Positions 885-35,740 of a stretch of DNA of 38,568 bases are shown one piece after another. Under the pieces are notes generated by a model, which had not been told where the DNA came from, searched no databases, and worked only from the letters and a program-made list of their open reading frames with translations. The DNA comes from Thermodesulfobacteriota bacterium (lineage in GTDB: Bacteria > Desulfobacterota_D > UBA1144 > Nemesobacterales > CSP1-2). Position 1 is the first letter of the stretch. Every line of letters starts with the position of its first letter. The translations under genes were made by a program, and so were the position numbers. Location of the stretch: the NCBI GenBank assembly GCA_036397855.1, contig DASWID010000125.1:1-38568 (forward strand). Direction: 5' to 3'.

Positions 885-3800
885 TTACTTCTGCCCCTTC
901 ATCTTTCTCCTGATCGCCCTGAATCCAATCGCTAGTGCTGGAACGAGCGGTATCAGTAAGTTCGCCATCGCGGTACCTAGCTGTATCGGAGCAGCTCCAG
1001 CAATTGATGAACAACCATTCTCGTTACCCTGGTTCGCCGATAAACAAATACCTATGTCAAAATCATTGAAGTCTTGACACGTTTGTCCTGCCGGGCAATC
1101 AGAATTATCTCGACACCCTATAATACACACATTACTCTCACAAATTTCTCCAAGTGGACAATCTATATCATCTTGGCACTCCGGAGGTGTGGGTGTTGGT
1201 GTGGGTGTTGGCGGTGTTGGTGTAGGTGTTGGTGTGGGTGTTGGCGGTGTCGGTGTAGGCGTTGGTGTTGGTGTCGCTGTCGGTGTCGGTGTCGCTGTAG
1301 GCGTCGGTGTCGGTGGTTGACAGGCTGCAGCTCCTGAACAATTTGGATCCGCGCAGTCTGTCAATGCATTTATCTGTGGATTGTTATTGATAAGGTCAGC
1401 ACAGTTATTGAAGGCCACGCCTTCCTGACAGTCGAGCGAGTTGAAGCAGAGGTCGTTGTTACAATCCACCTTGCCCTGAGCATCAGCAGTATCTTGACAG
1501 CCTTGATTTATGCATTCGGGCGTGAGCGCACACTCTGGCAACTTACAGTTGTCTGTACAGGGAAATTCCTTGAACTCAAGTGCCCCTATGTCTGCTGCAA
1601 ACTGCTGATTACATCCAATAAATGCACATTCATGAGGAGTCATTTCCTTGTCTCTATCTACTCCTGCGTTTGTCGCCATGTCAACAGCGGGAGAAAAGGG
1701 AGTTCTCAGATGATAATTTCTCGCACCAGGATTCACAAAGAGAGGATCAGCGCCGAATTTATTGTTAACATTCGTTTGAAATATACATCCCTGGCCTATA
1801 AAAAGGTCCGAGGGAGGTATAAACACGTTTGTATTGTTAAAGTTTATCGTAGGACCGACAATGCAATTTTCCAGGTTTAAATTAGCCCCAAGAACACCAC
1901 ACCAAATGTCTCTACCTTCAAGACCAAGCAGATTTATCGGCTGTACGAGCGTGGGGGCATCATTGAATCTGATAATTGAGTTAAGGAGAGTAATGTTAGA
2001 TGGTATAATGGCAACAAATACGCCTCCACCCTGTCCATCGGCAGAGTTATCAGCAATGGTTGCATGATTTACCAAAACATCGGCTCCATCCGTAACACAA
2101 ATCCCACCTCCATTGGCCGATAGGGGATCGCCGAACGCTATATTCTGAGCAACGCAAACATTCTGAAATTGAGCGTCTGTAATTAATCCAGGTAATAATC
2201 CCTTACCGATATTTATTCCCCCGCCGCCGCATGGAAGATCCGTTAATGCATCTATTTCAGCTTCATTGCCAAGTATATCACTATCCTCAACGGTAATCTT
2301 ACCACCACATCCAGGAAGTAGGCCAGCAAGGCATCTATTTCCCACGTTGATCCCTCCTCCGGGATTAAATGCCTTATTGTCGTTGATTCGCGCCCTCCTT
2401 ATATCCCCCAGGGCTAACTCAGTTACGTTGTCGAGATTATCAAACGAGATCCCTCCGCCACTTCCAACTGAGATATTTTCTGTAACGTCAAAATCGAGGC
2501 CGTCAAGGAATCCCCCATGACCAATGAAAATCCCCCCACCAGATCCTTGAGAAAGCACTCCGGGATTCCCACTATTCGCATTATTGTTGCTAATCACGGT
2601 CCTTGCAGCACCCACCAGTTTGTCCATAGGATTTCCGGGAAATCCTATGGTAACCCGACAGTCGGTAGCGTACACACCTCCCCCTCTACCGGTACCGAGT
2701 AGATTCGAACCAGCATTGGCGACATTGCCATTTATGACTGTTGGGAAAATAGTACCCGTTCCATCAAATATCCCATCACCCGTAGGTTTGAGAATAAGAT
2801 CTGATTCACCCCTGCACGCAAGACCACCTCCATCGCCTTCATTAGCCTTGTTTTCAAGCAAGAAATCAGACTCCATTGTCAGTATCGAGTCGTCGGTAGC
2901 AAAACAGCCACCACCACTATCATCGGCTATGTTCTGCGATAAGACATTCCCATAAAACGTAACTACACTTGCTTTCGTATAACAACCGCCACCATCTCCA
3001 CTGCCGTCTGTCCCGGCAAGATTGTGAAAAATAGTGTTTCTGACAACCTGAAGTGATGAGTCCTTGCTATTAATACCTCCGCCATTGTCCTCGGCCTGAT
3101 TATCCTTAACTAAAGTGTCAACCATGAACACCTCTCCAAAATCGTCCATAAACACCCTAACGATTTGTATGCCGCCGCCGTCATATGCATGATTTCCCTG
3201 GAGCTGTGAGTTCATGATGTTGAGCGTTGAATCTACGACAAAAAGGCCTCCCCCATCTCCACTGCCCCCGCCTCCAAATTCTACTATTTCGTTATTTCTA
3301 ATATCGCAGTTGTCTATCTGACCATCTGACTCTAAGATCAGACCACCAGCACCACCTATACTCTGAGTTAGAGCGGTATCCGTAAATGAAGCGTCGTTAT
3401 TCTCGACAACGCATCTATCGAATTGAGTGCTGCCTACTAATTCGCATTCAGTACAATCACACCAGGCAAAACCCCCGCCAGATCCAGGCACCGCCCTGCA
3501 CGAGTTGATGTCGAGGTCGATCCCGGTGAATCCGCCCGTTCGGGTTACGAGTAGACAACCTCCGGCGATTATAGTATCACCATTGCCATTGTCATCTACA
3601 CATAAGTCTCCGTCCGACTGGGCATTTCCAAGATGTAAAATTAAACTGTCCAACGTTATGTTCGCCGAATCCTCGATGATTACGGCTCGAGTGTTAGTGT
3701 CTCCGGCCACGAAAGTTAGATTAGACGGAGACCTTGAACCGTTTGCAAAATTACTGCCTGGAAGAAAGCCGCCAATGACAGACAGGTTGCTAAAACTGCC

Positions 3801-4070
3801 TATGCCAAATGGCCCGTAGCCGCCCGCCTCGACCCTGATCTGGTCTCCATTAGCGGATGGCACTCCATTAATTGCGAATTCTATCTCTCGACACGGCGAC
3901 ATTGGATTAGTACATGGGTCGTTTGCATCGCTGCCGGAAGCTGATACAAACTTCGTCCCAGGGACAGCACCAGCAAACGATTCGGAAGCAAACAGCACAA
4001 ATACAAAAAATATAAGAAAGATAATAGATAAAGGAACGAACCTACTGATATTTGATTCTGATTTTAACAT
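885..4070 (-). CDS. Secreted right-handed beta-helix repeat protein with Thr-Pro linker and C-terminal sorting-like tail
   Basis: A 1061-aa exported surface protein. Residues 1-33 form a signal peptide (basic start, long hydrophobic core, SFA/GAVPG). Residues about 35-835 are dense in GGG-I/L/F/V turns and N-x-A/S-x-x-GGG repeats, typical of right-handed parallel beta-helix or polymorphic outer-membrane-type proteins. The end ADIGALEFKE resembles the choice-of-anchor Q motif. Next come a Cys-rich segment, a (Thr-Pro)n linker at about 918-962, and another Cys-rich segment with CxxxxxC spacing (CQDDIDCPLGEIC). The last about 42 residues are NGCSS, a hydrophobic helix with internal prolines, then RAIRRK, resembling a CTERM sorting signal. 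AAGGAGG lies about 8 nt before the ATG and a good promoter lies at 4143-4172. The ligand or function is unknown; adhesion or surface display is inference. Confidence 0.8.
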   Translation of the reverse strand: MLKSESNISRFVPLSIIFLIFFVFVLFASESFAGAVPGTKFVSASGSDANDPCTNPMSPCREIEFAINGVPSANGDQIRVEAGGYGPFGIGSFSNLSVIGGFLPGSNFANGSRSPSNLTFVAGDTNTRAVIIEDSANITLDSLILHLGNAQSDGDLCVDDNGNGDTIIAGGCLLVTRTGGFTGIDLDINSCRAVPGSGGGFAWCDCTECELVGSTQFDRCVVENNDASFTDTALTQSIGGAGGLILESDGQIDNCDIRNNEIVEFGGGGSGDGGGLFVVDSTLNIMNSQLQGNHAYDGGGIQIVRVFMDDFGEVFMVDTLVKDNQAEDNGGGINSKDSSLQVVRNTIFHNLAGTDGSGDGGGCYTKASVVTFYGNVLSQNIADDSGGGCFATDDSILTMESDFLLENKANEGDGGGLACRGESDLILKPTGDGIFDGTGTIFPTVINGNVANAGSNLLGTGRGGGVYATDCRVTIGFPGNPMDKLVGAARTVISNNNANSGNPGVLSQGSGGGIFIGHGGFLDGLDFDVTENISVGSGGGISFDNLDNVTELALGDIRRARINDNKAFNPGGGINVGNRCLAGLLPGCGGKITVEDSDILGNEAEIDALTDLPCGGGGINIGKGLLPGLITDAQFQNVCVAQNIAFGDPLSANGGGICVTDGADVLVNHATIADNSADGQGGGVFVAIIPSNITLLNSIIRFNDAPTLVQPINLLGLEGRDIWCGVLGANLNLENCIVGPTINFNNTNVFIPPSDLFIGQGCIFQTNVNNKFGADPLFVNPGARNYHLRTPFSPAVDMATNAGVDRDKEMTPHECAFIGCNQQFAADIGALEFKEFPCTDNCKLPECALTPECINQGCQDTADAQGKVDCNNDLCFNSLDCQEGVAFNNCADLINNNPQINALTDCADPNCSGAAACQPPTPTPTATPTPTATPTPTPTPTPPTPTPTPTPTPPTPTPTPTPPECQDDIDCPLGEICESNVCIIGCRDNSDCPAGQTCQDFNDFDIGICLSANQGNENGCSSIAGAAPIQLGTAMANLLIPLVPALAIGFRAIRRKMKGQK
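1186..1318 (-). repeat. Low-complexity hexanucleotide tract encoding the Thr-Pro linker
   Basis: Degenerate tandem GGTGTN/GGTGTCGGC-type repeats encode alternating Thr and Pro (about residues 918-962 of the beta-helix protein). The unit length is a multiple of three, so copy-number change would lengthen or shorten the linker without a frameshift. Confidence 0.8.
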
Positions 4071-12125: not shown

Positions 12126-13124
12126 ATGGGGTCATTGCTTGACTTTGTACTTTCTAAGCAATTTTAGGAGTTTTAGGTCGGTTTTGTCCATTCTCTCAAT
12201 CTCTCCCTGTATCTTTGAAACCCTAGTCGTCGATATGCCAAATTCCTCTGCCACAGCCTTGAGCTCCAGATTCGCTATCCTCCTCAACAAATAGACGGCA
12301 GCTTTATATGCCCTAGCATCTCTTCGATCCATTATTTCATCTAATGAAACAAAATATTCGCTTCCCACTGTGTTAAGTACCTCAATTTTCGTCGGTCTCG
12401 TCGGTACTGTCTGTGTTATTGGCACATTATTTATACTTTCCTTATTAATTCGACCATCCATATCCTCCAAAAATCCCTTACGCCCCAACCAGATTTGTCC
12501 CTTTATCTTCTCCCATGGGCTTGGCCCACCAATTCCGTCCAATACGAAGAGTCTGTATTGAGCGCGCGCCTCTGTTTCATCATGACTAAATAGCTCCAGA
12601 ACCCCCTTTGTATCCAACCACCTCGGCCCCGCTCTCAGACCAACTGTACTATTAAAGCTGCTCCATTCCCATTGCTCAGGCTGATCAACAATACCAGCCC
12701 TTACGGGATTCAAAACTACATATCTGCAAAGTTCCAGTAAATAACCCTCACGTTCAACGATTAGGCTCTTGTATCTGCCCTGAAATAAATGGCCATGTCG
12801 CCCATGTTTCCTATTAAACATCTGGGAATAAACGGCATTAAGTCGTCTCATTCCAGAGACTAAATTGCCCTCGGGTGTCTCGATAACTAGATGGTAATGA
12901 TTGTCCATTATACAATAGGCATAACATTTCCATCTTTTCTGTTCTATCTCCTTGCCGGTTAGATCAAGAAAATCCCTTCGATCCTCCTCGTCTAAGAATA
13001 TCTCCTGCTTGTTATTCCCGCGTGAAGTAATATGATATAGAGCACCTGGAAACTCTAGTCTCAATTGTCTTGCCATAATAATATGAAAGTATACACCCAG
13101 TACAAAGTCAAGCAATGACCCCAT
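12126..13124 (-). mobile_element. RAYT/IS200-like element bounded by perfect 26-bp inverted repeats
   Basis: 12126-12151 and 13099-13124 are exact inverted copies of a 26-bp sequence beginning ATGGGGTCATTGCTTGAC. Between them lies one transposase gene. Both ends overlap the coding frame: the left repeat encodes the last residues and the TGA stop, and the right one holds an upstream in-frame ATG. Outside the repeats a GCATAT hexamer is shared (left GCATATAAATGGGG, right as complement GCATATGGGG). I see no target-site duplication. Confidence 0.75.
12132..13076 (-). CDS. REP-associated tyrosine transposase (RAYT, TnpA_REP / Y1_Tnp)
   Basis: A single-strand DNA transposase of the HUH superfamily. 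From ATG 13076 it has 314 residues. It opens MARQLRLEFPGALYHITSRGN, the classic RAYT start. The HUH pair is H60-Y-H62 in MDNHYHLVIETP, and the likely nucleophile is Y83 in the AVYSQMFNRKHGRHGHLFQGRYKS block. VVLNPVRAG and WEWSS follow. The C-terminal about 70 residues form a helix-turn-helix resembling the DnaA DNA-binding domain (AVAEEFGISTTRVSKI). An upstream ATG at 13124 would add 16 residues that do not match the family, so I prefer 13076. The frame is intact and may be active. Confidence 0.9.
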   Translation of the reverse strand: MARQLRLEFPGALYHITSRGNNKQEIFLDEEDRRDFLDLTGKEIEQKRWKCYAYCIMDNHYHLVIETPEGNLVSGMRRLNAVYSQMFNRKHGRHGHLFQGRYKSLIVEREGYLLELCRYVVLNPVRAGIVDQPEQWEWSSFNSTVGLRAGPRWLDTKGVLELFSHDETEARAQYRLFVLDGIGGPSPWEKIKGQIWLGRKGFLEDMDGRINKESINNVPITQTVPTRPTKIEVLNTVGSEYFVSLDEIMDRRDARAYKAAVYLLRRIANLELKAVAEEFGISTTRVSKIQGEIERMDKTDLKLLKLLRKYKVKQ

Positions 13125-17390: not shown

Positions 17391-17542
17391 GAATCAATTA
17401 TCATTCGTCAAGGTGGAGCCCTGCATCAAAGGGCTCTATCGATCCTGTTCCAAATGTGAGATTATTCTTCAGAGTTTTTAATTAATTGATTTTTGATGTA
17501 TCATTAGAAGAGATAAATAGTGTATACAAAGGAGAGAATGTC

Positions 17543-18106
17543 ATGGGGCTTGGAGATATGTTGTCAAAGATATTTAATAGCGAGGGTATTAAAGAACCAA
17601 AATCTAGGGAATGGGACAATTCCGTACCCCCAGTTGAGAATATCGACGATAAGAAGGGTGGGTCCCCAGAAGGAATAGTTTTAAAAGACAGACCTGTCGT
17701 CGATCATGAGGGAAATCTGAGTTCGCCGTCGACTGCAAACGAAGGTGGATCCGTGACCGAATCTGGAGGGGCTAAGAGGGATTCGACCAATGAGGGTTCG
17801 ACTCCTGCCGAAGTTACTGAGGAAAACGTCTTAGAGGTACTGAGCGGTGTATACGACCCAGAGATTCCTATAGATATCGTGAACCTGGGCCTTATATATG
17901 GTGTCGATATAGAAGACGGAAATGTTCATATAAAAATGACTATGACTGCTCCCGGATGTCCGTCTTCTGCAGAAATTGCTGCGGAGTCAAGGATTCTTAT
18001 TGAAGAGCTGCCCGGAGTGAAATCGGCTACTATTGAGATTGTTTGGGATCCGCCATGGGACCCGAGCAGGATGAGTGAGGACGCAAGGCAGAGTATGGGT
18101 CTTTGA
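17543..18106 (+). CDS. MIP18/DUF59 (SufT-like) iron-sulfur assembly factor with long N-terminal extension
   Basis: A 187-aa protein. Residues about 88-187 form a MIP18/DUF59 domain: YDPEIPIDIVNLGLIYGVDI, TAPGCP with the conserved Cys139, LPGVKSATIEI, and the WDPPWDPSRMSEDAR tail. Such proteins (SufT, PaaD-like) help mature or deliver Fe-S clusters. Residues 1-87 are Ser/Glu/Gly-rich and probably disordered, apart from a short amphipathic start MGLGDMLSKIF. I chose ATG 17543 because AAGGAG lies 7 nt upstream; an upstream non-ATG start at 17486 lacks that. No suf genes are adjacent. The Fe-S-rich ACIII operon downstream is a possible client, which is inference. Confidence 0.87.
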   Translation: MGLGDMLSKIFNSEGIKEPKSREWDNSVPPVENIDDKKGGSPEGIVLKDRPVVDHEGNLSSPSTANEGGSVTESGGAKRDSTNEGSTPAEVTEENVLEVLSGVYDPEIPIDIVNLGLIYGVDIEDGNVHIKMTMTAPGCPSSAEIAAESRILIEELPGVKSATIEIVWDPPWDPSRMSEDARQSMGL

Positions 18107-18191
18107 TTCTGCATGAAGCTTGTCAAATTGGTATCTTTAACTTTTTAACATTATCCAATCAGTTATATATTCCGTAGTGAAAGTTAGAATG

Positions 18192-18282
18192 ATGCATGAT
18201 TCACGATACATGATTCATGATGAAAAACGGAAGTAGAGAGTTTAATCGTGCATCTTGAATCCTATATCCTGCATCCGTATCG
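18192..18282. repeat. Opposed heptamer arrays (TGNATCN) upstream of bioD
   Basis: 18192-18222 holds about four units in minus orientation (complement TGAATCA, TGTATCG, TGAATCA, TGCATC). 18249-18282 holds about five in plus orientation (TGCATCT, TGAATCC, TATATCC, TGCATCC, GTATCG). The 26-nt middle is unrelated. As RNA the two arms could pair into a long imperfect hairpin. The remainder of the gap 18107-18347 shows nothing else. Confidence 0.75.
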
Positions 18283-18347: not shown

Positions 18348-19085
18348 ATGTCCAATCTTCCCAAAGGAATCTTTGTTACTGGAACAGATACCGGTGTTGG
18401 TAAGACTGTGGTGTCGGCGACAATCGCCTGGACACTGCAGCAATCTGGTAAAAGGGTTGCAGCGATGAAGCCAATCCAAACAGGCGCAGGGGAAGATGGA
18501 CTATTGGATATTGAGTTTATTCAAAAGGTTATGGGGACTAACTATCCACTCGAAGCCGTTTGTCCGTACAGATTTCCAATGCCACTCGCACCTCTGGCTG
18601 CCTCCAATTTAGCGGGAGAACGAATAGACATTGAAAGAATCAAGTCGGCTTATTTTGATCTAAGCTCACGGCACGAGATAGTGATTGTTGAAGGAGCCGG
18701 CGGTTTACTTGTTCCTATAACAGAGACCTATTTCATGTCTGATTTAGCACATGATTTAGAGCTTGGTCTCATAATCGTAATTAGGCCGGGCCTTGGAACT
18801 TTGAACCACACTCTCCTTACCCTTGAGTATGCGAGATCGCATGGCTTGAATATACTTGGATTTGTCATCAATAACTTTCCTGATAGTCCTAATCTAGCAG
18901 AACGAATGAATCCAGAGTTATTGCTTAAACTTACAGGGGAGAAGATTCTGGGTGTAATCCATCATGATCATGAGATCAGCATAGAAAGGGGGAATGTAGG
19001 TAATCTCATCGAGACATCGGGAACCACATTAACACACGATCTTGGGGGAACATTCTTGGTAGAGGATTTTATCTCAAGGCTTTGA
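18348..19085 (+). CDS. bioD: ATP-dependent dethiobiotin synthetase BioD
   Basis: Closes the ureido ring of dethiobiotin from 7,8-diaminopelargonic acid, CO2 and ATP, the penultimate step of biotin synthesis. It has 245 residues. The P-loop GTDTGVGKT (12-20) opens the protein, Lys41-Pro in AAMKPIQTG binds carbamate, and VEGAGGLLVPI carries the conserved Glu and glycines. LGTLNHTLLTLEYAR and GFVINNFP follow as in BioD. No other bio genes are next to it. No clear Shine-Dalgarno precedes ATG 18348. Confidence 0.95.
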   Translation: MSNLPKGIFVTGTDTGVGKTVVSATIAWTLQQSGKRVAAMKPIQTGAGEDGLLDIEFIQKVMGTNYPLEAVCPYRFPMPLAPLAASNLAGERIDIERIKSAYFDLSSRHEIVIVEGAGGLLVPITETYFMSDLAHDLELGLIIVIRPGLGTLNHTLLTLEYARSHGLNILGFVINNFPDSPNLAERMNPELLLKLTGEKILGVIHHDHEISIERGNVGNLIETSGTTLTHDLGGTFLVEDFISRL

Positions 19086-19946: not shown

Positions 19947-22925
19947 ATGCCTGAGAAGAAAGAGGGTGGTATTAACGGTATCAAAAGAAGGGATTTTCTA
20001 AAAATAATTGGAGTTGCGGGAGGAACTGCGGCCGCTACCGGTTGCTCTTCTGACCCGGTCGAACAGTTAATCCCGTTTGTTATTCCTCCATATGGCATAA
20101 TTCCAGGTGTTCCCAATTGGTATGCTACAACCTGCAGAGAATGCCCAGCTGGTTGTGGGACCCTTGTCAAAAATCGTGAAGGAAGGGCTATTAAGGTAGA
20201 AGGTAATCCCAAGAGCACCGTCAGTTACGGTAAAACATGTGCAAGAGGTCAAGCTGCTCTTCAGGGGCTTTACAATCCTGACCGTATCCGTTCTCCCCTT
20301 GTAAAGACCTCTTCCGGCAAGCTACAACCCTTGGGGTGGGAGCAAGCTGAAAAGGTTTTATTAGATAAAATTCAAGAGCTGCTTGATCAGGGCAAGGCTC
20401 ACAAGATAGTTATTATTACTAACAATGTCACGGGTACTCTTAACGATCTCATAGATGAATGGATGAATGCACTTGGCGGGGGTAAACATATAGTTTATGA
20501 AACCTTTGCACACGAACCTATTAAAGAAGCAAATAAGATTACCTTCGGGGTCGATAGTATTCCATCCTACGAGATTGAGAGAGCAAAGTACCTGCTTTCG
20601 TTTGGCTCAGACTTCATTGAGACATGGCTTTCACCCGTAGAGTTTGCCAATAAGTTTAGTCAGATGCACAGCTACAAAGATAAAAGCAAAAGTATGGGCA
20701 AGTTTGTTCAAATTGAACCGAGATCCTCGATTACAGCATCGAGTGCAGATCAATGGGTGGCCATTAGACCAGGTACTGAGGGATTTCTTGCCCTGGGGAT
20801 TACAAATTTGATCTTAGATAGTGGCAGGGCCTCGATAGCAAGTGGAGAAGCCGCTAGGCTTAAAAATCTCGTCGGTTCCTACACACTTGATAAAGTTTCT
20901 ACAATTTGTGATATACCGAAAGATACCATAGTTGAAATTGCAAAAGATTTTGTTGAGTTAAGTCCTAGTCTTGCGATCGGAGGAGGGGCTGCATACACAA
21001 CTACTAATGCTACACAGACCCTTTCTGCAATAAATATCCTGAACTATGTTGCGGGCAACATCGGTGATACGGTTAACTTTGGAGATACGCTTACCATCGC
21101 AAATTCAAATTCATTTAGTGAGATTACATCTCTCGTGGAATCGATGAAGAACGGAGATGTTGAACTTCTTTTTATTTATAATGTTAATCCTGTATTTACG
21201 TTACCTGAGGTTTTGAAATTCGAAGAAGCAATAATGAAGGTGCCCTTCGTCGCGAGCTTCTCGAGCTTTATGGATGAAACGACAGAGCATGCCAGTATTA
21301 TCCTTCCTGACAACACACCACTTGAAAGCTGGGGTGATTACATTCCAAAGGGAAGTGTTTATGGATTGATTCAGCCAACAATGAGTGCCGTTTTTAATAC
21401 TAAATCCACCGGAGACGCGATTATATCTATCACGAAAAAAATCAATGGACTTGAGAATCAATTCACTGCTAATAACCTCTATGAATACCTGCTAGAGTCG
21501 TGGAGGAAGATTCATTCGAGGATTGCTTCACAAAAGGATTTTGAAACATTCTGGGTTGAATCGGTAGAGAATGGGGGGGTTTTTAGGGAACTTCCTCCAT
21601 TACAAGTCCAACTAACCAATGAGGCTTATAGTATCGATTTCTCGGACCTTCAGCCAGAGATAAAAGGTGATGGCGAATTGTATTTTATACCTTTCCCATC
21701 ATATAGATATTATGATGGCAGGGGGGCAAATAAGCCTTGGTTACAGGAGCTTCCAGATGCCCTGACGACCGCAGTGTGGGATTCATGGGTTGAAATCCAC
21801 CCCGATACTGCCGGTAAAATCGGGATAAGGGAGGGTGACTTTGTCTCAATTGAATCAAAATACGGTAGCATTGAAACGCAAGCATATATATATAAAGGTA
21901 TCAGGCCCGATACAATTGCGGTTCCACTCGGCTTAGGTCACAAGAGCTATGGAAGATACGCAAAAGACAGGGGTGTGAGTCCAGTCAAGATCCTGCCTGC
22001 AGCTATAGATAAGAGCTCTGGGGGATTTGCATGGCTTACCACCAAGGTAAATGTATCTAACACTGGAAAAAGGGAACAATTAGTAATGACACAATACACA
22101 ACGGCTCAGCATGACCGCAATATAGCATTGGCCACCACCCTACCCGAGCTAAGAGGAAATGGCGGGGAGAATCATCAACAAGAGGATGACAATGTTGATC
22201 TGTATCCGCCCCGGAAATATCTAACCCACCGCTGGGGAATGTCAATCGATTTATCGAAGTGTACTGGTTGTGGGGCATGTGTTACCGCCTGTTACGCGGA
22301 GAATAATGTGCCCTTTGTCGGGAAGGAACAGGTTGCGAGAAGGCGTGAAATGTCTTGGATCAGGATTGAAAGGCATTATGAGGAAAAAGATACCAGTCAC
22401 GGGTTCAATACTAGATTCATACCGATGCTATGTCAGCAATGTGGTAACGCACCATGTGAGCCGGTATGCCCAGTGTATGCTACCTACCATAACCCTGAAG
22501 GGTTGAATGCGATGATATACAATCGTTGCGTGGGTACCAGGTACTGCTCGAATAACTGTCCTTATTCTGTAAGGAGGTTTAATTTTTTTACTTACCAATG
22601 GCCACAGCCACTTAACTGGCAACTTAACCCGGATGTCACCGTTCGCACAAAGGGGGTTATGGAGAAGTGCACTTTTTGTGTCCAGAGGATTAAATACGTG
22701 CAAAATATTGCTAAGGATGAGAATAGGGATGTCAGGGATGGTGAGATAACGCCGGCATGTGCACAGGCTTGTCCTACCGAAGCGATCGTTTTTGGTGATC
22801 TTAAAGATGAAAATAGTAAGGTAGCCCAACTCTCAAATGAGGGGAGGGGTTATAAAGTGTTGTCGAATCTAAATACACAACCATCGATAACATATCTAAA
22901 AAAGGTTTACTGGGATAAAGCATAA
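19947..22925 (+). CDS. actB: Alternative complex III subunit ActB, molybdopterin-oxidoreductase-like plus Fe-S domain
   Basis: A 992-aa periplasmic electron-transfer subunit. A Tat-type signal (KRRDFLK, R14-R15) is followed by Cys33 in ATGC, which could be lipidated. Residues about 55-720 resemble bis-MGD molybdoenzymes, and in characterised ACIII this domain carries no molybdenum. An N-terminal CxxCxxxC-x27-C (63, 66, 70, 98) is retained. The C-terminal ferredoxin-like domain carries clusters: C772-xx-C-xx-C-xxx-C782, C829-xx-C-xxxx-C-xxx-C841, C861/C867/C871, C908-xx-C911 and C938-xxx-C942. That is enough for four Fe-S centres. Stop and actC start overlap (TAATG). Confidence 0.94.
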   Translation: MPEKKEGGINGIKRRDFLKIIGVAGGTAAATGCSSDPVEQLIPFVIPPYGIIPGVPNWYATTCRECPAGCGTLVKNREGRAIKVEGNPKSTVSYGKTCARGQAALQGLYNPDRIRSPLVKTSSGKLQPLGWEQAEKVLLDKIQELLDQGKAHKIVIITNNVTGTLNDLIDEWMNALGGGKHIVYETFAHEPIKEANKITFGVDSIPSYEIERAKYLLSFGSDFIETWLSPVEFANKFSQMHSYKDKSKSMGKFVQIEPRSSITASSADQWVAIRPGTEGFLALGITNLILDSGRASIASGEAARLKNLVGSYTLDKVSTICDIPKDTIVEIAKDFVELSPSLAIGGGAAYTTTNATQTLSAINILNYVAGNIGDTVNFGDTLTIANSNSFSEITSLVESMKNGDVELLFIYNVNPVFTLPEVLKFEEAIMKVPFVASFSSFMDETTEHASIILPDNTPLESWGDYIPKGSVYGLIQPTMSAVFNTKSTGDAIISITKKINGLENQFTANNLYEYLLESWRKIHSRIASQKDFETFWVESVENGGVFRELPPLQVQLTNEAYSIDFSDLQPEIKGDGELYFIPFPSYRYYDGRGANKPWLQELPDALTTAVWDSWVEIHPDTAGKIGIREGDFVSIESKYGSIETQAYIYKGIRPDTIAVPLGLGHKSYGRYAKDRGVSPVKILPAAIDKSSGGFAWLTTKVNVSNTGKREQLVMTQYTTAQHDRNIALATTLPELRGNGGENHQQEDDNVDLYPPRKYLTHRWGMSIDLSKCTGCGACVTACYAENNVPFVGKEQVARRREMSWIRIERHYEEKDTSHGFNTRFIPMLCQQCGNAPCEPVCPVYATYHNPEGLNAMIYNRCVGTRYCSNNCPYSVRRFNFFTYQWPQPLNWQLNPDVTVRTKGVMEKCTFCVQRIKYVQNIAKDENRDVRDGEITPACAQACPTEAIVFGDLKDENSKVAQLSNEGRGYKVLSNLNTQPSITYLKKVYWDKA

Positions 22926-34156: not shown

Positions 34157-34738
34157 TCAAATCAAATATTTTATAATTATGAAGCCTAGCAAAAGCAGGA
34201 TGAAAAAGAGTGTGACAAGTAGATTAAAATATTTATCAATAAAGCCTTTGATCTGGTCACCAAAGAGATAGATTAATGCACCCTCTAAGAAAAACCTTGC
34301 CGATCTCCCGATAACAGATGCTAAAATTAATATCATTACATTAATCTTGAAAACACCAGCTGTTACTGTAAAAACCTTAAAGGGAATAGGGGTAAGTGCA
34401 GCGGCTAGGATTGCGATAAAGGCGTTTTCTTCATATCTTCCGCTAACATATAGAAAAGCATTATGGCTGAAGACATAGGTAAAAAAAAAGTTATCAACAA
34501 GTTCCCATAAACCCCATCCGATTAGGTAACCAAATATAGCGCCGAGGACAGACATAATTGAACATATTGCCGCATACCATAATGACCGCTTTGGCTTACC
34601 AAGGCAAAGTGCCATGAGGAGTGGGTCAGGAGGGATAGGGAAAAGGGATGCTTCCAAGAATGAAACGAGAGAGAGTGCCGGGACACCATATCTAGTATCC
34701 GCCCATTGGAGTACCCAGTTATAGAGCTTCTTAAGCAT
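34157..34738 (-). CDS. DedA/YqaA-type (VTT/SNARE-associated) membrane protein
   Basis: A 193-aa inner-membrane protein of the YqaA group of the DedA/VTT superfamily, whose members include lipid flippases and scramblases. Re-entrant-loop features: SFLEASLFPIPPDPLLMALCLGKPKRSLWYA, then GAIFGYLIGWGLWE, ALTPIPFKVFTVTAGVF and SVIGRSARFFLEG with the conserved Gly-Arg. A final hydrophobic segment (about 170-192) ends the protein. It overlaps the surE stop by 8 nt (ATGCTTAA). SurE with this protein is a common pairing. The exact transport role is not known for YqaA. Confidence 0.92.
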   Translation of the reverse strand: MLKKLYNWVLQWADTRYGVPALSLVSFLEASLFPIPPDPLLMALCLGKPKRSLWYAAICSIMSVLGAIFGYLIGWGLWELVDNFFFTYVFSHNAFLYVSGRYEENAFIAILAAALTPIPFKVFTVTAGVFKINVMILILASVIGRSARFFLEGALIYLFGDQIKGFIDKYFNLLVTLFFILLLLGFIIIKYLI

Positions 34739-35498
34739 GTGCTAGGCTTTTAGTTAGGTCTTTGGTCAGGGTTTCGAGAAATTCATAGTCTGTAAGGTCT
34801 AATTTTATAGGTGTAACAGATACGAAACCTTGGCTAACCGCAACGAGATCAGAATCCTCAATGCTTAAAAAGCGGAGTTCGTTTCCGCCTATCCAGTAAT
34901 ACTTTCTTCCCCTTGGATCAATCTTTTCCACTATTGGCTCCCCGTACACACGCTTACCCTGTTTAGTTACTTCAATTCCTTTGACGCTGTCTTTCGGGAG
35001 ATTCGGTATGTTAACATTTAGCAGTGTCCCAAGCGGAAGAGGATTCGTGATGACATATTTTGTTACGGACTGGGCGTAATAGGAGGCAGTGTCAAAGAAA
35101 AAATCTTTTTTGCTTGCCAGAGATACCGCGATTGAGGGGATCCCAAGAAGTGTTCCCTCCATGGCAGCACTGACGGTTCCGGAATATGTTATGTCGTCTC
35201 CGAGGTTTTCCCCTTTGTTTATCCCGGAGACTATTATGTTGGGTCTACCTTCTTTAAGTAGACCATTGACTGCGACATTAATGCAATCGGTTGGAGTTCC
35301 ATCCACGCTGTATATATTTTCGCTGATCTCCTCTATCCTGAGCGGATGATGTAAGGACAATGCATGACTCGCTGCGCTCTGCTCTCTATCAGGGGCGACG
35401 ACAAAAACCTTTCCCAAGGGTCTGAGGCTATCGGCTAGTGCGTGAAGGCCTTCGGAATTAATCCCGTCGTCATTTGATATAAGGATCCTTATTGCCAT
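34731..35498 (-). CDS. surE: 5'/3'-nucleotidase SurE
   Basis: A 255-aa survival protein that hydrolyses nucleoside 5'- and 3'-monophosphates, and polyphosphate in some bacteria. The metal site is ILISNDDGINSEG (Asp10, Asp11). SALSLHHPLR, GTPTDCIN, NIIVSGINKGENLGDDITYSGTVSAAMEG and SVTPIKLDLT follow in family order. ATG 35498 is at the upstream edge of the repeat-containing gap. The next gene (YqaA-like) overlaps its stop. Confidence 0.96.
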   Translation of the reverse strand: MAIRILISNDDGINSEGLHALADSLRPLGKVFVVAPDREQSAASHALSLHHPLRIEEISENIYSVDGTPTDCINVAVNGLLKEGRPNIIVSGINKGENLGDDITYSGTVSAAMEGTLLGIPSIAVSLASKKDFFFDTASYYAQSVTKYVITNPLPLGTLLNVNIPNLPKDSVKGIEVTKQGKRVYGEPIVEKIDPRGRKYYWIGGNELRFLSIEDSDLVAVSQGFVSVTPIKLDLTDYEFLETLTKDLTKSLAHA

Positions 35499-35543
35499 AT
35501 AACTATTTAGTCACAAGTAAAGATGGTGTTACAATGATGAAAT

Positions 35544-35607
35544 GATGCACGGTGCATGATTCATGATACTGAAACGTCCTGCATCCTGCATCGTGCATCC
35601 TGCATCT
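35544..35607. repeat. Opposed heptamer arrays beside tRNA-Pro
   Basis: 35544-35570 holds about four units in minus orientation (gatgcac, ggtgcat, gattcat, gatact). 35580-35607 holds four perfect plus units (TGCATCC, TGCATCG, TGCATCC, TGCATCT). The spacer is 9 nt, so the two arms could fold into one hairpin. Same unit as at 558-592 and 18192-18282. Confidence 0.8.
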
Positions 35608-35664: not shown

Positions 35665-35740
35665 TGGTCGGGGTGACTGGATTCGAACCAGCGACCCCCG
35701 GCCCCCCAGGCCGGTGCGCTACCAACTACGCTACACCCCG
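35665..35740 (-). tRNA. tRNA-Pro (anticodon GGG), CCA encoded
   Basis: Minus strand: acceptor arms CGGGGTG and CACCCCG, D-arm GCGTAGTTGGTAGCGC, anticodon stem CCGGC/GCCGG with loop CTGGGGG and anticodon GGG, and T-arm CTGGTTCGAATCCAG. Discriminator A and genomic CCA end it. Length is 76 nt. Confidence 0.96.

Follow-up and report, generated by a model that had tools for sequence, protein, structure and literature searches.

The heptanucleotide arrays in the stretch of DNA analysed here (38,568 nucleotides, below 'the window') belong to a dispersed intergenic family with the unit TGNATCN. The reading of them that we favour, at a probability of roughly 0.45, is that they are dispensable non-coding repeats lying between cistrons, probably within operon mRNAs (that they are transcribed is judged from position), polar with respect to transcription and under selection at the mRNA level. 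The main rival is that they are protein targets in duplex DNA; plain slippage, and movement driven by a REP-associated tyrosine transposase (RAYT), are weaker.

Three TGNATCN arrays lie in the window, at 558-592, 18190-18276 and 35543-35607, and the coordinates given in the first-pass annotation were right to within a few bases. As it had also described, the first is a single five-copy array and the other two, read out unit by unit, have a minus arm followed by a plus arm around a short spacer. The five units of 558-592, all perfect and in plus orientation, occupy the gap between the adjoining gene for tRNA-Ser(tga) (598-683) and a downstream TP_methylase-family gene (2-556) which, from its start MKGKLYIVSTPIGNL, we take to be RsmI-like; both genes are on the minus strand, and the far end of the array is 1 bp from the probable ATG (554-556). 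In the second element the minus (GATNCAN) arm (18190-18224; four of five units perfect) and the plus (TGNATCN) arm (18242-18276; three of five perfect) are separated by 17 bp (18225-18241) that are A/G-rich on the plus, here the mRNA, strand, and its co-directional plus-strand neighbours are a gene with a FeS_assembly_P domain upstream (17486-18106) and bioD, for dethiobiotin synthase, downstream (18348-19085; TIGR00347, above the cut-off). In the third, the minus arm (35543-35570; two of four units perfect), a 9-bp spacer (35571-35579) and the plus arm (35580-35607; all four perfect) come between two minus-strand genes, that for tRNA-Pro(ggg) upstream (35665-35740) and a SurE family gene downstream (34731-35498). 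Matches to TGNATCNTGNATC number 11 in the window; shuffles that preserve dinucleotides predict 0.17, and none of 100 gave more than one. Rfam matched two tRNAs there and nothing else.

The window is a contig of a 3.10-Mb draft genome, G000, across which TGNATCNTGNATCNTGNATC, representing three tandem units, has 206 matches and a reversed control pattern none; the units are neither at chance frequency, nor out of tandem phase, nor confined to the three places. A self-match test at lag 7 over 430 kb of G000 gave 24 loci, lags other than multiples of 7 giving 0-5, and in the relative G002 the lag-7 test returned no loci except a run of N. The initial judgement that this is no random simple repeat was therefore sound, counts for the dispersed family being far above those of shuffles and reversed pattern, and so was the exclusion of CRISPR, since 7-bp units without spacers are unlike repeats of 20-50 bp with unique spacers of constant length. 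Within the unit TG and ATC are fixed, and the third position (N3: C 55%, T 21%, A 15%, G 9%) and the seventh (N7: C, A and G about 28% each, T 14%) are largely free, so that of the constant TGNATC with one free base originally proposed the heptad stands and the single free position becomes two. Arrays range from one to sixteen units; of 44 loci read in fetched stretches of G000, 23 are two-armed, all minus then plus. Spacers, in 62 two-armed elements from three genomes, are 8-51 bp long with a G+C of 0.33.

Of the six relatives within the same family, four are array-rich (G001, G003, G005 and G006), G004 is poor and G002 empty; outside the family there are mere traces. A scan of named genomes, which gives examples and is no survey, yielded among the matches listed 102 of 117 that are plain uniform heptamer satellites. 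Two-armed TGNATCN elements are frequent in G061 (250 pattern matches; one locus titled Nitrospirae bacterium NC_groundwater_1506) and G065 (88 pattern matches; titled Nitrospiraceae bacterium SURF_35), and among the matches listed small numbers come from one Syntrophaceae genome, one Anaerolineales genome and other genomes.

Orthologous sites may be occupied or empty, and the gap between tRNA-Thr and tRNA-Tyr illustrates both: G004 has just 7 bp there and no array, G002 a short gap, G001 one unit per arm, and G000, G003 and G006 full elements. Between rplE and rpsN, G006 carries an element and G003 another sequence, and at one further site a TGNATCN element in G006 corresponds to an opposed array of another heptamer in G003. 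At single sites the elements are dispensable. Orthologous arrays of G003 and G006, a pair about 94% identical, differ by indels of 7, 14 and 28 bp, that is by whole units, plus point changes; the tRNA-Thr/Tyr element has seven changes in the 28 bp of its right arm, with left arm, spacer and near flank identical, and one G003 array has four additional near-identical TGCATCC-type units. Divergence between the two is 0.044-0.064 at the fixed bases, 0.13-0.14 at N3, 0.10-0.12 at N7 and 0.079 in the near flank. The slower divergence at TG.ATC is consistent with constraint, with the qualification that the free-base figure would be too high if units had been misaligned or exchanged.

By simple ORF calls together with ARAGORN, 37 of 39 classified array loci in G000 are outside called ORFs. 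Flanking genes are co-directional at 30 of 37 arrays (among all gaps of 60 bp or more the figure is 136 of 217) and convergent at three; many arrays fill almost the whole gap, and about nine adjoin tRNA genes, two of these being within the tRNA-Thr/Tyr/Gly/Thr cluster. One tRNA operon and one ribosomal-protein operon have elements in their interior. These are the positions of neither promoters nor terminators.

The elements are also directional. Of the elements whose spacer has an A/T imbalance and whose neighbours are co-directional, 35 have the A-rich strand as mRNA strand and eight have it as the opposite strand. Oriented by the A-rich spacer strand, N7 is mostly purine in both arms, with a significant difference between arms in every genome; oriented by gene direction alone, 50 two-armed elements have mostly purine at N7 and 13 mostly pyrimidine (p=3e-6), the background of intergenic gaps being about 50-53% purine. 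The corresponding figures for one-armed arrays, 18 and 10, do not differ significantly, and the window element at 18190-18276 is not purine-major at N7. The test was exploratory, with no held-out set, and polarity was seen in all five genomes. On the mRNA strand a typical element reads (GATRCAR)n, A-rich spacer, (RTGMATC)n. Given that the elements are aligned with transcription, the best reading is that they act, or are selected, at the level of mRNA.

How might such elements live? As intercistronic repeats selected in the message, they would be copied or converted only occasionally, and would grow and shrink by 7-bp slippage and by exchange of units. Selection would act on the transcribed form, which could at most be a helix whose paired steps are 3 and 2 bp long in turn, N3 and N7 forming the mismatches between them, and an element might serve as a spacer that separates or punctuates adjacent genes in the mRNA, neither starting transcription nor ending it.

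The alternative that survives best places the function in duplex DNA, the arrays being multi-site targets for a protein making one contact with TG.ATC in every 7 bp and loaded from both sides of the A-tract; a nucleoid-associated protein or a ribbon-helix-helix protein would be a candidate. The fixity of five bases in seven, diverging more slowly than the free bases and the near flank, argues for it, as does the IHF/HU binding proposed for opposed heptamer and octamer arrays of Geobacter metallireducens (PMC2700814). Yet there is no reason why such a site should align with transcription, and the variation in number of units and the emptiness of orthologous sites in close relatives also tell against it; we hold it to be unlikely, though deserving of serious attention. 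The Geobacter sequences, classes 1-3 of 'global regulator binding sites', are putative IHF/HU sites proposed without test (PMC2700814). Like the present elements they are tandem heptamers or octamers in opposite-strand pairs at variable distance, intergenic and multicopy, with the difference that TGNATCN is not among the units reported (PMC2700814). Six of the seven genomes in the window's family do have tandem copies of the class-3 unit, MTYCTGA, with opposed arms in G003 and G000; the window arrays are not of the class-3 form (about five tandem MTYCTGA, in opposed pairs), and other elements in the same genomes match MTYCTGA.

It is improbable that the arrays are functionless products of 7-bp replication slippage, for which an idea of polymerase footprints has been put forward in the case of heptamer repeats (cited in PMC4692102). 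Gains and losses of whole units fit slippage, as do the extra TGCATCC-type units of the G003 array and the existence of several unrelated period-7 families in G003 and G006. Slippage, however, makes neighbours alike, and in 65 perfect arrays the free-base identity of adjacent units is 0.29 against 0.328 +- 0.021 in shuffled units. Since adjacent units are no more alike than random ones, the arrays did not arise by recent copying of one unit, and tandem duplication of a single unit is rejected. Opposed arms, two specific free positions and polarity would likewise be left unexplained.

Might the hairpin itself be the functional RNA structure, as a terminator, a stabiliser of mRNA or a processing site? 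We consider this very doubtful. The opposed arms can, as had been suggested from the first, be folded by prediction into a hairpin, its helix broken by regularly spaced mismatches, and in four examples predicted folds are better than those of shuffles (z -1.5 to -5.2). The free bases nevertheless avoid pairing. Identity at N7, with each arm read in its own orientation, is equivalent to pairing in the hairpin, and among 166 mirrored pairs from 61 distinct elements of G000, G003 and G006 it was found in 22 (0.133; on permutation, right arms being exchanged among elements of one genome, 0.277 +- 0.032); N3 shows the same avoidance more weakly. One near-perfect palindrome, the tRNA-Thr/Tyr element of G006, was omitted from that test and is included in the later analysis of five genomes, in which N7 identity over all registers was 0.119, 0.189, 0.185, 0.237 and 0.036, permuted values being 0.25-0.34 and P 0.007 or less in each genome. 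The test was exploratory in G000, G003 and G006 and was then repeated in G061 and G065, where the avoidance held. Of 90 elements, 73 have a weaker predicted RNA fold than the same elements given resampled free bases. This avoidance disfavours a perfect hairpin as the functional form, and on the same ground a compensatory hairpin RNA is rejected. There is no compensatory pattern and no excess of covariation; the rarity of convergent neighbours and the placement of many arrays inside operons are further points against a functional hairpin. The arms of the G006 tRNA-Thr/Tyr element are complementary over 28 bp bar one mismatch, so good pairing is tolerated. With arms oriented by gene direction, N7 pairing is 0.20 observed and 0.22 expected from arm composition; being no rarer than composition predicts, anti-pairing may be a mere by-product of polarity, which accounts for it and may be its cause. 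Mismatch types are neither preferred nor avoided beyond arm composition, and G.U wobble is not enriched. Sense and antisense strands fold equally, which rules out worse folding of the sense strand. Intrinsic terminators, with a perfect G+C-rich stem and a T-run at an operon 3' end, are rejected because the stems here are interrupted and lie mostly between co-directional genes.

That the arrays are REPIN-like elements moved by a RAYT has, in our estimate, little chance of being correct. REPINs too consist of two inverted halves around a spacer, extragenic and dispersed, and by definition have a conserved 16-mer along with a cognate RAYT (PMC3116915); for TGNATCN elements the 16-mer is lacking, and no cognate RAYT was found at the RAYT loci inspected. 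The architecture of opposed arms around a spacer, the 17 Y1_Tnp matches in G000 (one within the window) and a few spacer cores that recur with unrelated flanks in G003/G006, G061 and G065 favour such an origin. RAYT-like genes are present in G000; G004, however, has 13 Y1_Tnp matches and almost no arrays, and the two counts do not track each other, which speaks against RAYT mobilisation. Only two of six RAYT loci whose flanks were inspected are within about 1 kb of an array, in both cases one-armed. In G000 no spacer core is common to any two of 30 elements, there is no fixed 16-24-base word, and the free bases are effectively random.

Recurring cores with unrelated flanks mean that copying happens, and the early suggestion of mobility is borne out for a minority of elements, in other genomes, none of the 30 in G000 having a common core. 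Copy-paste had seemed to be indicated by identical 62-bp cores in G061; because the flanks are alike too, these are mostly duplications of longer segments. Of MITE or insertion-element signs, target-site duplication was absent at the few sites considered (tRNA-Thr/Tyr and rplE-rpsN), where the outer ends vary, and a reverse transcriptase as source is dismissed for want of any RVT_1 match in G000. Of the transposase genes themselves, the RAYT-like Y1_Tnp gene of the window (12132-13124) has a perfect 26-bp inverted repeat (13099-13124 / 12126-12151) at or near both its ends, and at L057:676-1632 a Y1_Tnp transposase is fused to a bacterial DnaA C-terminal DNA-binding domain.

The units of the cyanobacterial Calothrix repeats (STRR) differ from TGNATCN. 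The Calothrix heptanucleotide repeats are, like the present arrays, tandem and multicopy (as cited in PMC4692102). Our nearest published analogue is the Xanthomonas heptamer arrays, GGGAATC / (GGGANTN)n, described in two genomes by Rehm et al. in 2015 with function unexplained (PMC4692102). They share with TGNATCN a heptamer with two free positions; there are about 185 per genome, with 70-75 opposed pairs and about 90% intergenic (PMC4692102). As here, most have co-directional ORFs on either side and few have divergent ones, and they occupy the same sites in related species with variable length and sequence (PMC4692102). The present family has the opposed, close, intergenic pairs (23 of 23 minus then plus) and lacks the GGGANTN sequence; that unit forms G-quadruplexes (PMC4692102), whereas TGNATCN is not G-rich. 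The TAACTGA repeats of Beggiatoaceae, cyanobacteria and Bacteroidetes are short intergenic tandem heptamers, often beside a start codon, where they seemingly replace the Shine-Dalgarno sequence, a situation similar to that of the 558-592 array with its adjacent probable ATG; they differ in being almost always direct only, without free positions and with another unit (PMC4679880).

A literature search by repeat sequence gave nothing relevant. Publication of opposed degenerate heptamer arrays for Geobacter metallireducens and Xanthomonas (PMC2700814, PMC4692102) means that the kind is known, though unexplained, and the first-pass annotation's surmise of an undescribed family is half right, what is distinctive here being the TGNATCN unit, the polarity and the anti-pairing of the arms. 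In the accessible part of the Xanthomonas account no test of polarity or anti-pairing was found (PMC4692102), nor was a polarity test found for such repeats in the literature to the extent that it was accessible. Published guesses for the over-representation of heptamers in bacteria are G-quadruplexes, IHF/HU sites and polymerase slippage; polarity and arm anti-pairing are measurable, discriminate among these ideas, and can be tested directly in the Xanthomonas and Geobacter genomes that have similar arrays. Should they prove general, a common but nameless type of intergenic sequence would gain an anatomy and a level at which it acts. It is a long shot that the opposed arrays of TGNATCN, MTYCTGA, GGATTNC, GGAATTA and GGGANTN, from unrelated bacteria, form one general class of intercistronic element, with two arms of 7-bp period around an A-rich spacer, polarity with transcription, and an origin in some process that delivers units already varied at their free positions. 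If they did, the period of 7, which steps through the three frames, would place both stop and start codons in each frame of the gaps within operons.

Opposed period-7 arrays of other units occur in the same genomes (CAGAAGT/MTYCTGA, GGAATTA, GGATTTC with GCAATCC, and CGTAAGN), at L199:5570-5640, L199:8542-8662, L204:14178-14260, L204:4331-4428, L205:3923-4001, L211:849-886 and L249:12417-12476. A second repeat, CATTTGTCAATTG(TGA), often borders one-armed arrays near toxin-antitoxin-like genes (L047:2080-2100, L053:250-275, L059:6902-6930, L059:8597-8626, L057:2140-2160 and L052:493-517). Arrays of G061 at L297:826-908, 1600-1626 and 2505-2552 are directly before ORFs with a type IV prepilin-like start (the TLIEL motif, read from DNA), some of them following a common 'ccccttaccaaggggggaattaaagggggg' repeat. 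Within the window, ORF 885-4070 contains tandem repeats based on the hexamer GGTGTN (1186-1317) and has directly downstream, by strand, a 33-bp near-perfect palindrome (845-877) that is a likely terminator. One 992-aa ORF (19947-22925) combines a QrcB-like molybdopterin part with a QrcC-like iron-sulfur part, unlike the named families, in which QrcB and QrcC are separate subunits.
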